64,000 bases of DNA, taken from NCBI RefSeq assembly GCF_030651835.1, contig NZ_JAUSBX010000125.1, positions 46,732 to 110,731 of the forward strand. Direction: 5' to 3'. Positions 7,335-60,936 of the stretch are shown piece by piece. The first letter of the stretch is position 1, and each line of letters opens with the position of its first letter. Below the pieces are notes generated by a model. The model was not told the origin of the DNA, made no database searches, and saw nothing but the letters and a program-made list of their open reading frames with translations. The stretch is from Methylicorpusculum sp. Lineage in GTDB: Bacteria > Pseudomonadota > Gammaproteobacteria > Methylococcales > Methylomonadaceae. A program made the translations under genes and the position numbers.

Positions 7335-8219
7335 TCAACGCATAACCACCCGGTTTCTGCCAAGTTTTTTCGCGGTATACATCGCTTCATCGGCGCGACT
7401 GACCAGTTGTTCTGCGTGATCATCACTGCGTAAATGACTGATTCCTAAACTTGCCGTCAGTTTTAAGGTGTCCATGTCAAAGGCCAACGTATGATTTTCA
7501 ATATTGCTGCGAATGCGCTCTGCTAATAATGCGGCGCCTTCCTTGTCGGTATCACTGAGTAAAATGACAAATTCTTCACCGCCATATCGATAAAGGATAT
7601 CGCTGCCCCGAATGCTCTCTTTAATCCATTTTGCAACCGCTACCAGTGCGGAATCTCCACATTGATGACCGTAGATGTCATTGACTCGTTTAAAGTGATC
7701 AATGTCTAAAAAAATGACCGCTAAATCTAAATGATTGCGATGGGCCAATTGGATTTCTCTTTTCAGGCATTCATTAAACGAAGTTCTATTGCGAGTGTTG
7801 GTTAGTGGATCATTGAAGGCCATGTCGATGGCTTGATGATAGAGTGTTGCGTTTTTTAATGGATAAATTAAGCAGCACAGCAACGATTCCAATAAATCCA
7901 TTTCCTTGGGGTCAAATTTCTGACGGCGCATGAATTTGAGTTCGCCCAACTGTTGTTCCTCTACTTTCAGCGCATATGAACAGGAATTGCGAGTTATAAT
8001 GCCGTTTTTGATCGCAATGCCGAATTCGTTGTTGAAATATTCGAAGCCGCTGTGAGGAATCAGGCTTTGAATTTTTTCGCTGAAAATGGTAACCAATTGG
8101 TTAAACTCGAGACTCGTTTGTAACGCGCTGCTGAGATCGTAATGGTGCAGATTGACTGCTTTTGAGGCTTCAAAAGTTACGTTGCTGACTAAGGCTAAAT
8201 TGGCGACTTTGTTGGACAT
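7335..8219 (-). CDS. Diguanylate cyclase with N-terminal sensor-like region
   Basis: A 294-residue protein. The GGDEF domain (about 135-294) carries the active-site GGEEF at 213-217, the metal-binding Asp in LDIDHFK near 172, and the product-inhibition site RxxD (RGSD, 204-207) five residues ahead of GGEEF. It should therefore make cyclic di-GMP from two GTP with feedback inhibition. The first ~130 residues have no membrane helix and may be a divergent cytosolic GAF-like sensor. The ATG at 8219 has AAGAGGT upstream. It is transcribed away from the sdh cluster. A c-di-GMP riboswitch candidate occurs at 49.4 kb. Confidence 0.92.
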   Translation of the reverse strand: MSNKVANLALVSNVTFEASKAVNLHHYDLSSALQTSLEFNQLVTIFSEKIQSLIPHSGFEYFNNEFGIAIKNGIITRNSCSYALKVEEQQLGELKFMRRQKFDPKEMDLLESLLCCLIYPLKNATLYHQAIDMAFNDPLTNTRNRTSFNECLKREIQLAHRNHLDLAVIFLDIDHFKRVNDIYGHQCGDSALVAVAKWIKESIRGSDILYRYGGEEFVILLSDTDKEGAALLAERIRSNIENHTLAFDMDTLKLTASLGISHLRSDDHAEQLVSRADEAMYTAKKLGRNRVVMR

Positions 8220-45349: not shown

Positions 45350-46699
45350 ATGACATCCGCTATTGTGCACCCTGCTTTGCGCCGCGCAGTCAATCGCAAC
45401 GATATCGAACAACTTCGTGGATTTTTGGAAGACTTTCATGAAGCCGATATTGCCGATATATTGCAAGAAGAATCGACGGCAGGCGCTTGTGAGATAGTGT
45501 CTTATCTATCCCCCGATCGACGCGCCGCAGTATTCGGTCATTTGCCTCCTTTCTGGCAGGAAAAAATGGTTGCTGAACTTTCCGATCAAGATCTGTCTGG
45601 CTTACTCAAAGATATCGATGCCGACGAAGGCGCCGATCTGCTTCATGTTATCCCCCAAGAAAGACACGCCAGCATACTGCGTTTGGTTGCCCGTAAAACA
45701 CGCGAAGATTTACTCAAACTGGCGAAACATAAAGAGGGAACGGTCGGCGCTATCATGACTTGCGATTATGTCACGGTTTCAGCCCAAATGACTATGGCAG
45801 AGGCGCTCGACAACGTTCGTAAGACAGCACCAAATGCTGAGATGATTTATCAAGTCTATGTGGTCGATTCCAAACATCGTTTAAACGGTACGATATCGCT
45901 GCGAGAGTTGATTCTTAATCTTCCGAAAGCGGTGGTCAAGGATATCATGACCACCGAACTGGTTAGTATTGGCGTGTTTTCGAAGCAGGAAGAGGCCGCC
46001 AAAATGATCAGCCGTTACGATTTATTGGCTCTACCCGTTGTCGATGATGATAAACATTTGGTCGGCATCGTCACTTACGATGATGCCATGGATGTTGCAG
46101 AGCAAGAAGCGACTGAAGATATGCACAAAGCAGCAACGATTAGCCCTGTAAGCAATCTGCGTCACGCCAGCTTATTGACCCTTTATCGTAAGCGGATTGT
46201 TTGGTTATTAGTATTAGTCTTCGGTAACTTGTTCTCAGGTGCAGGCATCGCTTATTTCGAAGATACAATCGCCGCTTATGTTGTGTTGGTATTTTTTCTG
46301 CCTTTATTAGTCGACAGTGGGGGTAATGCAGGCTCTCAAGCTGCAACACTGGTAATCAGAAGCTTGGCAACCAACGATATTCATTTGAAAGACTGGGGGC
46401 GCATGTTAGGCCGTGAAATTATTGTCGCTCTTAGTTTGGGTCTTACAATGGCTGTCGCGGTGTCTTTGATCGGTTTTCATCGAGGAGGAGCCGACATAGC
46501 TCTGATTGTAGCACTGAGCATGCTCGGTTGCGTTCTGGTCGGTAGCCTAGTGGGCTTGTCGTTACCTTTCCTATTGACACGAATTGGTTTAGATCCGGCT
46601 ACTGCCAGCGCTCCCTTGGTAACAACCGTCGCTGACGCCGTAGGAGTTGTTATTTATTTTTGGATCGCCACATCGATATTACCTATACCGGCATCTTAA
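45350..46699 (+). CDS. mgtE: Magnesium transporter MgtE
   Basis: A 449-residue Mg2+ channel-transporter: N-terminal helical superhelix domain (about 10-130), two CBS domains (about 130-255), then five membrane helices with the signature FLPLLVDSGGNAGSQAATLV. The CBS region closes the pore when cytosolic Mg2+ is high. It is flanked by a two-component system and an outer-membrane-type gene within a repeat-bracketed block. Confidence 0.96.
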   Translation: MTSAIVHPALRRAVNRNDIEQLRGFLEDFHEADIADILQEESTAGACEIVSYLSPDRRAAVFGHLPPFWQEKMVAELSDQDLSGLLKDIDADEGADLLHVIPQERHASILRLVARKTREDLLKLAKHKEGTVGAIMTCDYVTVSAQMTMAEALDNVRKTAPNAEMIYQVYVVDSKHRLNGTISLRELILNLPKAVVKDIMTTELVSIGVFSKQEEAAKMISRYDLLALPVVDDDKHLVGIVTYDDAMDVAEQEATEDMHKAATISPVSNLRHASLLTLYRKRIVWLLVLVFGNLFSGAGIAYFEDTIAAYVVLVFFLPLLVDSGGNAGSQAATLVIRSLATNDIHLKDWGRMLGREIIVALSLGLTMAVAVSLIGFHRGGADIALIVALSMLGCVLVGSLVGLSLPFLLTRIGLDPATASAPLVTTVADAVGVVIYFWIATSILPIPAS

Positions 46700-46798
46700 T
46701 CGCTTTAATTCTTTTCTAAATAAATCCCTTTATGAATGTGCTGTATCGCAAGAAACAGCTACGTCTTTAATTTTTTATCGCTATTTTGGAGAAATGCC

Positions 46799-47677
46799 AT
46801 GAAATTGCTCAATCTTATTGAAAATAGTAAAAATAGATATGTTTTGAATGGTAAATCCTATTTGTTTGCCACGGCCTTGAGCCTGATTGCCGATGAAGCG
46901 GCGGCGGTACGTCCTTTCGTAACCGATGATGCGCGAATTACCGATGAAGGCCAAATCGAAGCCGAAACTTGGCTTGAAACAGGCTATGTCAACGGTGTTT
47001 GGTCCCCTTTTCCGGCATACAATATCATGATAGGCACATCGGTCAACCAGTGGTTGGAGCTGATTGCTGGTGTAGGTGTCGGACGCGATAGCGATGATGA
47101 ACTGACCTATTCCAATCCCGCCTTTCAAACCAAAATATTGTTCAATAAAGCGCAAATCGACAGCATAATGCCAGGATTCGCGCTTGGTGCCGGCGCGACA
47201 TTCGACACTGGGCGTGGAGATATGCATGATGTTGGCAGTAATTATTACATCATCGGCATGTCGACTTGGCGTTTTGCCGGTGATAAATTGATCTTGCATA
47301 CCAACTATGGTGCTCGGATAGATAGAGAGCGGGGCGGCCCGCAGCGAATCACGCCTTATTGGGGAATCGGTTACGATTTGGAAGCCTTTCATCCGGAAGT
47401 TCGTTTGATCGGCGAAGTATTTGCCGGCGACCCTTTGATTTTGAATGCACCCAAGTACGCGTCGCAGTTTGGCATGCGCTGGTTACCTACCGATCACTTG
47501 AATTTCGATGTTACCTTCGGTTTACAACCCGAATTGGACGATTGGCGTAATGAAACGGGCCGACTGGAGTTTGCCGGTCAAATAGGCATTAGAATGTTGT
47601 TTGATGTTTTCACGCAGGGAGGAAAACCGGGGCGCGCGGACGGTGCGGATGGCTTATTTGGTAATCCAGGTTATTAA
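46799..47677 (+). CDS. Outer-membrane-type beta-barrel protein of unknown function
   Basis: A 292-residue protein. The first ~38 residues contain a long polar start, then a hydrophobic LFATALSLIADEAAA stretch that may be a signal peptide. The mature start is RPFVTDDARITDEGQIEAET, seen in uncharacterised outer-membrane barrels sometimes annotated transporter or hypothetical. Alternating beta-strand patterns and a C-terminal IGIRMLFDVFTQ fit a barrel. GGAG precedes the ATG at 46799. It lies 99 bases after mgtE, probably in one transcript. Confidence 0.7.
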   Translation: MKLLNLIENSKNRYVLNGKSYLFATALSLIADEAAAVRPFVTDDARITDEGQIEAETWLETGYVNGVWSPFPAYNIMIGTSVNQWLELIAGVGVGRDSDDELTYSNPAFQTKILFNKAQIDSIMPGFALGAGATFDTGRGDMHDVGSNYYIIGMSTWRFAGDKLILHTNYGARIDRERGGPQRITPYWGIGYDLEAFHPEVRLIGEVFAGDPLILNAPKYASQFGMRWLPTDHLNFDVTFGLQPELDDWRNETGRLEFAGQIGIRMLFDVFTQGGKPGRADGADGLFGNPGY

Positions 47678-48109: not shown

Positions 48110-49126
48110 TTAATCGATATCAAGGACCTCAGCAGCTTCATCAGCCATGAAACCATGCACTGCTTTAGTCGGATGTATGCCATCCCAAAACAAATAGGTA
48201 TCAGGTTTCTTGCAGGCAAAAGGCGGCTTATTTGGCGTTACGCAGGCTCGATCAATTGTGGTGATGCCATAATTACTCGGATTGGCGATAATATTATTCA
48301 ACAAGGCATAAAGATCCAGCGTCCTTATATCAGCATCAGGCAGGCCAAAATTTAAACCGACCTGCAACAGGGCCAGTGCGTCGTTGAAGCCCCCGGCTAG
48401 AAGATTTGCTGAATTTGCGATATTAAGGTCAGGGTATAAATAATTCAGGGTTTGGATAGCGGGTGTTTGTCCTATGGCAGGGACATTAACCAATAAAAAT
48501 TTTCTGGCCCCTCTGAAATATAGCGATTGAATAGTAGTGTTAATTTGGTCAATCGCTTCGGTGATAATGGCCACTGGGTCTTGAGATACCAAAGCATCAC
48601 GGACATCATTTCCTCCCATTTCAATCACCACGAGCGCATTGGCCGATGTTGTAGTGAAGTCAGCCAGATACTCATCCAATTGGTTTGCCAGATTAAAACG
48701 GCACGGATATTCGGATGCCCTGGCGCCTCCGACTGCATAATTGCTGGCTTTTAATCCGGGGTTTCTTAATGCCGGACGAACATTGCCTGATAATCCCCGG
48801 CCGCGTGCCAGTTGTTCTATCCAGGTGGCACCATTGGTTACATGATGGCCGCCTCTGGCGTAAGTGCCATCCGGGATTACCAATTCGTCCAATGAATCAT
48901 AAGGCGGTACGTTGGCCGGGGTACCCACCTCGCAGCTTTCGTCAAATCCAAAAGCATAAGGGTCGGACAGCAAGACGAAGCCATTTCCCGGGTCGCTTAA
49001 GCTGGTTCCGAAAACCACGATTCTGTCGAACGGTTTCTCCTGTGCAAATGAAGCAAATGATAGGGCCAGACATGAAACTAATAATGTCAGGGTTCTGTTA
49101 ATGTACGACCAATTTATAGCTTTCAT
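48110..49126 (-). CDS. Secreted GDSL/SGNH-family esterase
   Basis: A 338-residue secreted hydrolase. The signal peptide covers residues 1-28 (hydrophobic LTLLVSCLALSFASFA). Block I is FGTSLSD with catalytic Ser42, block III is MGGNDVRDAL, and block V is DGIHPTKAVHG with catalytic Asp and His. It resembles the phospholipase/lecithinase type but lacks an autotransporter barrel. The ATG at 49126 has AGAGG upstream and gives the signal peptide at the N-terminus; an upstream GTG/ATG extension is less likely. It lies downstream of a riboswitch-terminator, so c-di-GMP probably controls it. Confidence 0.9.
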   Translation of the reverse strand: MKAINWSYINRTLTLLVSCLALSFASFAQEKPFDRIVVFGTSLSDPGNGFVLLSDPYAFGFDESCEVGTPANVPPYDSLDELVIPDGTYARGGHHVTNGATWIEQLARGRGLSGNVRPALRNPGLKASNYAVGGARASEYPCRFNLANQLDEYLADFTTTSANALVVIEMGGNDVRDALVSQDPVAIITEAIDQINTTIQSLYFRGARKFLLVNVPAIGQTPAIQTLNYLYPDLNIANSANLLAGGFNDALALLQVGLNFGLPDADIRTLDLYALLNNIIANPSNYGITTIDRACVTPNKPPFACKKPDTYLFWDGIHPTKAVHGFMADEAAEVLDID

Positions 49127-49366
49127 ATAAACCTCTTCTTTATTATTGTTATTAATAAGTACGGTGGTTTTTTGATGCAATTATTCCTTGCTGATTTTTT
49201 TTCTTATTCAGTGTGGGTTAGGGTTGTATGTATTTCGCAACCCAACAATTTAGGCCATGGTCTTGCCCTTTTGGCTATCACCAACCACAACCTACAAGGT
49301 GCATCACTATTGTTTTGTTGCTCCGGTGAATAGTTACGGTGATTTGTTCTTATTCAAAATTAGGGC

Positions 49367-49427
49367 AAAAAAAAGCCGGACTGCCCCATGCAACCTTGAC
49401 GAAGGTCACCTTCGGCAGTCCGGCTTT
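49367..49427 (-). terminator. Intrinsic terminator in the esterase leader (riboswitch expression platform)
   Basis: On the minus strand AAAGCCGGACTGCC (49427-49414) pairs perfectly with GGCAGTCCGGCTTT (49385-49372), followed by an 8-T run. It lies 240 bases before the esterase start, so it would stop transcription early. Its 5' arm is shared with the aptamer's 3' end. Confidence 0.88.
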
Positions 49428-49487
49428 CCTATGGTCAGGATCCGCGACTTTCTGTCCCTATTTTACAATAGGTTTGGCGTTGTTATT
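49408..49487 (-). ncRNA. Cyclic-di-GMP-I (GEMM) riboswitch aptamer upstream of GDSL esterase
   Basis: Minus-strand reading gives GCCAAACC, a stem CCTATT/AATAGG closed by a GTAA (GNRA) tetraloop, then GGGACAGAAAGTC, a TCCT/AGGA stem and AGCCGGACTGCCG. This follows the GEMM order: GCAAACC, stem with GNRA loop, GGGACGCAAAGCC, second stem, AGCCGGGTTGCCG. The 3' AGCCGGACTGCC is the 5' arm of the terminator, so ligand binding would be expected to disrupt termination (an ON switch). Direction of control is inferred. Confidence 0.75.
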
Positions 49488-49754
49488 TTTGATAACTAGA
49501 CCATAAAAATATTGGATTTTCAATAGAACAAATAAATCAAAATGTTTCTATGCCATCTGATGAAAACCTGAGTTCTCAATCCTGTGCTTCTTAATCTGCT
49601 CCAGAGATAGGGTTTGTTTTGTCAAAGGTGCTTTAAATCAAAGGTTTTTAGATACATTGTTTCCTTAAATTACAGCCAATAAGCATGTCAGACGAAAATT
49701 GTTAATGAATTTATACGGATAATCTCGTAAAATTTGACAGATTTTTATATTTTC

Positions 49755-60851: not shown

Positions 60852-60936
60852 GCCGATGTGGTGAAATTGGTAGACACGCCATCTTGAGGGGGTGGTGACG
60901 CAAGTCGTGCCGGTTCAAGTCCGGCCATCGGCACCA
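60852..60936 (+). tRNA. tRNA-Leu (anticodon GAG)
   Basis: An 85-base gene. The acceptor stem pairs GCCGATG with CATCGGC, the anticodon loop TTGAGGG reads GAG, a variable arm typical of class II tRNA-Leu is present, TTCAAGT is in the T loop, and CCA is encoded. It decodes CUC/CUU. Its 3' side leads into accessory DNA. Confidence 0.96.

Follow-up and report, generated by a model that had tools for sequence, protein, structure and literature searches.

On the minus strand of the window, by which we mean the whole stretch of 64,000 nucleotides that was analysed, a gene for a hydrolase of the SGNH/GDSL type is preceded by a long leader that contains an RNA aptamer and an intrinsic terminator. The features of this region are listed below in the order in which they would be transcribed.

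49495 to 49523, minus strand: possible promoter, TTGAAA, 17 nt, TCTAGT, ending 6 nt upstream of the aptamer (by eye; weak)
49411 to 49488, minus strand: c-di-GMP-I (GEMM-I) aptamer (RF01051, 56.2 bits, model positions 1-87)
49478, minus strand: G20-equivalent, ligand-contacting nucleotide, a G (RF01051 model column 11; G in 107 of 109 aptamers)
49476 to 49477, minus strand: 5' side of P1b (CC), with a flipped C21-G46 pair and C22 opposite A45 (RF01051 alignment and core columns of 109 aptamers)
49457 to 49472, minus strand: P2 hairpin CCUAUU-GUAA-AAUAGG with a GNRA loop (fold and sequence)
49451 to 49453, minus strand: 3' side of P1b (A45 G46), then A47 (core columns; A47 is 49451, model column 38)
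49442 to 49449, minus strand: 5' strand of P3, AGUCGCGG, its partner in the aptamer being 49417 to 49423 (96.7% of 671 cells paired in 96 copies)
49417 to 49423, minus strand: shared strand CCGGACU, predicted to be the 3' strand of P3 if ligand is bound and otherwise part of the terminator 5' arm (three-strand covariation)
49415, minus strand: C92-equivalent nucleotide, a C (RF01051 model column 83, numbering inferred)
49414 to 49427, minus strand: terminator 5' arm, AAAGCCGGACUGCC (terminator search and sequence)
49390 to 49409, minus strand: nested hairpin within the terminator loop (fold; recurs in relatives)
49372 to 49385, minus strand: terminator 3' arm, GGCAGUCCGGCUUU (terminator search and sequence)
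49367 to 49374, minus strand: U-tract of the terminator, 8 U (sequence)
49132 to 49136, minus strand: likely ribosome-binding site AGAGG (sequence; kept in the orthologous locus of genome G002)
48110 to 49126, minus strand: SGNH/GDSL hydrolase of 338 aa with a signal peptide-like start (PF00657, E 1.8e-23; alignment; PDB relatives)

The first-pass annotation had described the gene behind the leader as coding for a signal-peptide-bearing SGNH hydrolase, and this description is supported, with the signal peptide as a prediction: the protein matches PF00657, its N-terminus passes a signal-peptide rule of thumb, and the catalytic SGNH set (Ser42, Asn173, Asp315 and His318) is the same in all 10 sequences aligned, that of the window among them. 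Among proteins of solved structure, ChoE and a lysophospholipase A (PDB) are nearest in sequence, and the NCBIfam lysophospholipase models match below their cut-offs. The closest database protein, 96% identical, carries the name of a Methylicorpusculum MAG; as this genus belongs to Methylococcales, a methanotroph of the Gammaproteobacteria is the likely host. The gene begins 240 nt beyond the last U of the terminator, at 49126. It probably stands alone, since the nearest long open reading frame below it (46736-47677) lies on the opposite strand. Beyond the esterase gene and one open reading frame, the window carries a gene for an MgtE-type divalent cation transporter with CBS domains (45350-46699, plus strand), and a tRNA gene with a long variable arm is found at 60852-60933 (plus strand; RF00005).

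The aptamer was recognized with the RF01051 covariance model, a check that the first-pass annotation had called for. The match at 49411-49488 scores 56.2 bits against a gathering cut-off of 35 (E 2.6e-8 for the 64 kb window) and its alignment spans the full model. All parts of the GEMM-I pattern that had been noted by eye on the minus strand were found: AAACC, which is the 5' side of P2, the 6-bp stem with the GNRA loop GUAA, GGGAC..AAAG, the second stem (P3), and AGCCGGACTGCC. The P2 hairpin is thus GNRA-capped, and seven of seven P3 pairs are intact. In P1b the C21-G46 pair is formed, though flipped, and C22-A45 is unpaired, a mismatch that weakens the stem; no closing P1 helix was evident for the window's aptamer. 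The pocket nucleotides 20, 47 and 92 are numbered here in what we take to be the Vc2 numbering. Folding of the leader gave a z-score of -5.8 against 200 shuffles.

Downstream of AGCCGGACTGCC the leader continues with GGCAGTCCGGC and then 8 T. The terminator had been described as a 14-bp stem with an 8-T tail, which is correct when the AAA/UUU pairs are included. The stem then takes in three of the eight U, so that 11 pairs followed by 8 U can be read equally well. The loop of the terminator is not open but holds a second hairpin, which is paired in 74.2% of cells in an imperfect alignment of relatives. Upstream of the aptamer, the ortholog in genome G002 keeps the promoter-like stretch as TTGAAA..TCTATT. 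A scan for consensus promoters returned no promoter on the minus strand, the candidate at 49495-49523 being absent from its list.

The 3' strand of P3 (49417-49423) lies inside the terminator 5' arm (49414-49427), as had been proposed when the last aptamer segment was equated with that arm, and the aptamer and the terminator would therefore be mutually exclusive. The aptamer-forced fold has a predicted energy of -36.9 kcal/mol and the terminator-forced fold one of -50.3 kcal/mol, which favours the terminator by 13 kcal/mol at equilibrium. When minimum-energy folds are followed as the chain grows, P3 is kept up to the 109 nt step and lost at 112 nt, as the 3' arm of the terminator emerges. If the terminator wins at equilibrium, the switch must be decided during transcription, by timing. 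We consider it highly probable that this leader is a c-di-GMP-I riboswitch in which the last strand of the aptamer doubles as the terminator 5' arm, and in which c-di-GMP would block the terminator and allow read-through into the gene for an SGNH esterase that is predicted to be secreted, i.e. an ON switch. With c-di-GMP on the aptamer at the moment when the terminator 3' arm emerges, the shared strand would be held in P3, the terminator would be kept from forming, and the polymerase would read into the esterase gene; without ligand the same strand would serve as the terminator 5' arm and transcription would stop. It is likely that c-di-GMP is the ligand and that its binding wins the time needed for read-through. 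The enzyme may be exported and, in sessile growth, might have lipids or other esters as its substrates. The ON direction, which had been predicted from the sharing of the arm, gains support from the mutually exclusive helices in these folding models and from the covariation of the three strands.

The covariation was examined with a covariance model that describes the terminator state only and leaves P3 unpaired. It was built from nine copies and searched against 237 genomes of the window's GTDB family. Among the matches listed, those with E <=0.001 come from 115 of the 237 genomes and 22 of 29 genera, but the weaker ones fit the aptamer half only and include aptamers without an overlapping terminator (for example on contig G000:C54), so that 115/237 is an upper bound for the cassette of aptamer and terminator. 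The set of cassettes used below consists of the best of the terminator-state matches listed plus eight earlier loci, and is a part of all copies. When these 98 loci were rescored, 97 matches at E <=1e-9 could be aligned, 96 of them distinct (one identical row was counted once), and locus L066 gave none at this threshold. P3 formed no part of the model by which the 96 distinct copies were aligned; 96.7% of its cells are paired, and 62 double changes are seen where shuffles lead one to expect 16.6. For the terminator, on which the alignment was based, 87.8% of cells pair and double changes number 45, where shuffles give 10.3. Counted over pairs that show a double change, the excess is only moderate, 5 against 3.2 for P3 (reached by 31 of 500 shuffles) and 7 against 4.6 for the terminator (reached by 26 of 500). 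When the partner strand was slid by one to three columns, paired cells dropped to 12-40% for P3 and to 20-62% for the terminator. All these counts are of related sequences, not of independent events.

The copies, which came from 52 genomes and 15 genera, were then thinned to 60 that share less than 80% identity. In this set a swap of the shared base goes along with swaps of its two partners at five of seven positions: 66, 68, 69, 70 and 71. Written as P3 partner, shared base and terminator partner, the complete Watson-Crick triple swaps are GCG/AUA at position 71 (second state in three genera), UAU/CGC at 70 (two genera), CGC/UAU at 69 (five genera), CGC/UAU at 68 (two genera) and GCG/AUA at 66 (one genus). 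Cells that pair in both alternatives number 328 of 420; the 500 swapped-strand controls average 308 and reach at most 315. The margin is modest because most copies have the common state. A base that changes with both of its alternative partners is what a switch would predict, and not what would be expected of an aptamer followed by an unrelated terminator.

In a separate search, 109 GEMM-I aptamers were found in 23 of 61 genomes. Overlapping terminators with a score >=20 follow 13 of them; the window's is the best of these and the weakest, in genome G027, is probably spurious. The level expected by chance, from 50 dinucleotide shuffles of the downstream regions, averages 0.32 and does not exceed 2. 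This stricter count is used in place of a looser one, which gave 18 of 109 aptamers against 11.5% in a swapped control that mixes relatives. A class in which the ribosome-binding site would be sequestered gave no clear signal among the same aptamers (19/109, or 17%, against 12% in the swapped control), and our loose rule assigned no platform class to 72 of the 109.

The link between switch and esterase is shallow. Homologs of the hydrolase at E <=1e-60 are present in 11 of the 237 genomes, at 12 loci, and the switch before them is intact at four (G000, G002, one of the two copies in G168, and G178), decayed at two and absent at six. In the decayed switches, in G097 and G106 (loci L139 and L140), C replaces G20 and many terminator pairs are broken; both P1b pairs are lost in G097 and one in G106, and a terminator-like 3' end is partly kept. 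At the six loci no switch was found on the sense strand, with about 560 nt of upstream sequence examined in the case of G153. Genome G168, with one esterase copy behind a switch and one without, offers a natural comparison.

The ligand had earlier been left open between c-di-GMP and cGAMP because of the deviating core GGGACAGAAAG. This ground for doubt has to be revised: the two deviating letters belong to the 3' strand of P1b, a stem of 2 bp, in a variant common in the lineage, and nucleotides 20 and 92, which are reported to set ligand choice, are unaffected. Among the 109 aptamers, the window's included, pair 21-46 is C-G (flipped) in 90, G-C in 17 and another combination in 2, and pair 22-45 is C-G in 83, U-G in 12, U-A in 9, C-A in 4 and A-U in 1. 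Judged by these columns, P1b covaries and the flip is a habit of the lineage. Nucleotide 20 is G in 107 of the 109 and nucleotide 47 is A in 108, and the C92 column holds C in 101, U in 7 and A in 1; in all these core columns four cases with indels were placed by hand. G20, A47 and C92 of the window's aptamer point to c-di-GMP. Nucleotide 20 is nevertheless a guide and not proof, because the Bc2 riboswitch has an A where the G-alpha contact is predicted and is reported to answer to c-di-GMP all the same (PMC4933901).

A20 occurs in 2 of the 109 aptamers, L078 (G005) and L122 (G056), G being the rule in the family. Seven of the 109 combine G20 with U in the C92 column (two in L067, and one each in L080, L082, L088, L093 and L099), which might in principle give preference to a ligand with adenine on that side. 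The first-pass annotation had also pointed to a diguanylate cyclase with an inhibitory site at 7.3 kb. A GGDEF protein is indeed encoded at 7335-8219 (minus strand; PF00990, E 4e-49), with RGSD five residues before GGEEF (by eye), and it has the ordinary D signature; with 42 GGDEF matches in the genome, of which this is one, little weight attaches to a position 41 kb from the switch.

Sensing of 3',3'-cGAMP (GEMM-Ib), alone or together with c-di-GMP, would leave the antitermination unchanged, and we regard it as unlikely here. Some observations are in its favour. The contacts listed for the cGAMP aptamer 4YAZ, from Geobacter, have C15 beside A14, the equivalent of nucleotide 20, and by our own mapping the flipped C21-G46 pair is probably present in 4YAZ as well and is thus probably compatible with both ligands; A20 occurs in 9 of the 96 cassette copies of relatives. 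Against it, in the 42 GGDEF domains of the genome, the place that we take to be that of the Hypr signature residue (Ser in cGAMP-making GGDEF enzymes) is occupied by D in 41, N in one and S in none, as judged by eye from a draft assembly of 159 contigs; this count concerns GGDEF enzymes, not CD-NTases. One Geobacter switch is reported to respond to both cyclic dinucleotides, and in the cGAMP aptamer of Gmet_0970 a single A20G change was enough for c-di-GMP selection (PMC6456294). The window has G at this position (49478), and with G20 and no Hypr signature among the 42 domains cGAMP sensing was set aside as the main reading. Lower still we place membership of the variant class c-di-GMP-I-GGC (RF03167), which has the same overall fold as the window's aptamer and was proposed as a class with a possibly altered ligand. 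In a permissive search RF03167 gives the window a better E-value than RF01051 does (3e-11 over 181 nt), and among the six other aptamers of the genome it does so for five. The window nevertheless scores 49.7 bits against a gathering cut-off of 59, and the consensus of the class, GACGCGAAG, has G47 where the window (49451), like 108 of the 109 aptamers, has A47. Both points led us to reject the assignment, the score alone not being decisive, since a paralog with A47 (L037, 7540-7618) passes the RF03167 cut-off with 66.6 bits.

The remaining alternative is that a once working switch has decayed, so that the terminator attenuates constitutively and the aptamer is irrelevant. The C22-A45 mismatch in the window's aptamer would fit such a course, as would the clearly decayed copies before the esterase homologs of G097 and G106, but the mismatch recurs in 18 of the 96 distinct cassette copies, and all P3 pairs and the terminator are intact in the window. 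Moreover, only 2 of 78 positions of the aptamer differ from the G002 ortholog, while much of the adjoining leader on both sides is more divergent. We therefore think decay very improbable, to about the same degree as the variant class, and retain the c-di-GMP ON switch. The cassette copies that carry A20, the cGAMP-type letter, are L214, L232, L240, L248, L249, L254, L275, L278 and L280, some of which look decayed, and the sole aptamer of the 109 with G47, the letter of the c-di-GMP-I-GGC class, is L109 (G027:C112:54395-54476).

The window's genome has seven RF01051 matches above the cut-off, the window's own included. The genes behind them code for a subtilase, a large exoprotein (given this name by eye and truncated at the end of the locus), three proteins with PEP-CTERM-like tails, a protein of 139 aa and the window's hydrolase; one of the three tails passes its NCBIfam cut-off and the other two fall below. 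Across the 109 aptamers, our rule assigned a downstream open reading frame to 106 (three being without). By a rule of our own, 90 of these 106 have what looks like a signal peptide, and a PEP-CTERM-like tail closes 54 of them. The corresponding figures are 11/44 and 0/44 for control open reading frames of the window, 7/54 and 0/54 for those in GGDEF loci, and intermediate, 22/62 and 8/62, for other open reading frames in riboswitch loci. Of the 97 cassettes, 89 have a downstream open reading frame by the same rule and eight do not; 60 of the 89 look signal peptide-bearing, and a PEP-CTERM-like end is found in 5 of the 43 that are complete. The clientele of the cassette thus differs from that of the terminator-free aptamers, given 5/43 as against 54/106 behind the 109 aptamers, and the idea of PEP-CTERM proteins as its main targets was discarded on the same figures. 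Pfam matches were obtained for 6 of 10 cassette proteins scanned, and comprise RCC1, NHL, FG-GAP and PD40 repeats, a di-haem peroxidase and DUF11. A wider reading, which we offer tentatively and to which we give somewhat less than an even chance, is that a single cassette of GEMM-I aptamer and long terminator with nested hairpin has multiplied across the methanotroph family before genes for secreted repeat proteins, peroxidases and this esterase. One rise in c-di-GMP might then switch on a secretion and cell-surface programme by antitermination, beside terminator-free sister aptamers on PEP-CTERM proteins.

Systems of this kind are known. In Bc2 of Bacillus thuringiensis c-di-GMP is reported to raise read-through, making it an ON switch by antitermination (PMC4933901). 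As in the window, a GEMM-I aptamer is followed by an intrinsic terminator, and the Bc2 gene codes for a surface protein; Bc2 differs in having A at the place of G20, in its Gram-positive host and in controlling a collagen adhesin rather than an esterase, and the two are likened by their layout, not by terminator sequence (PMC4933901). In GSU1761 (pgcA) of Geobacter the ligand is described as favouring an antiterminator, again an ON switch (PMC6456294). The GEMM-Ib cGAMP switches of Geobacter share with the window's switch their occurrence in many copies per genome before genes of exported proteins and, probably, the flipped C21-G46 pair, but they combine A20 with cGAMP, whereas the window has G20, a genome in which no Hypr-type GGDEF was found, and a hydrolase as target (PMC6456294). 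A further case is Methylophaga nitratireducenticrescens GP59, a methanol user, for which seven c-di-GMP riboswitches are reported, four of them beside PEP-CTERM or VPLPA-CTERM genes; of these four, three were higher in biofilm and one in planktonic cells (PMC12530212). The window's genome likewise has seven switches, three of which precede proteins with PEP-CTERM-like tails; unlike the window, the available text on GP59 describes no overlapping terminator or esterase (PMC12530212). Among the best matches listed from open-licence papers, none treats the window's switch, its esterase or the family-wide cassette. The kind of system is thus already known, and the three-strand covariation and the family-wide cassette are new, as is, within this analysis, the narrowing of the ligand question toward c-di-GMP as the probable ligand.

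The locus places an esterase under predicted direct control by c-di-GMP at the RNA level, in bacteria that are likely methane oxidisers, judging by the names of their closest database relatives. The approximately 100 natural variants of the cassette, in which one RNA strand appears to coevolve with two partners, would make ready material for testing how switching proceeds during transcription. A single second messenger would link many of the group's secreted and surface proteins, which extends what was reported for PEP-CTERM genes in Methylophaga (PMC12530212).

Two further arrangements of aptamers were noticed. At five loci of genome G003 (L058, L059, L061, L063 and L068), five closely similar aptamers have the unusual start GCCAACUC; their downstream open reading frames, readable in three of the five, differ, which suggests recent copying of the leader. 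At L107 (G027:C100:18268-21158), four riboswitches lie within less than 3 kb, each before its own gene for a short PEP-CTERM-like protein.
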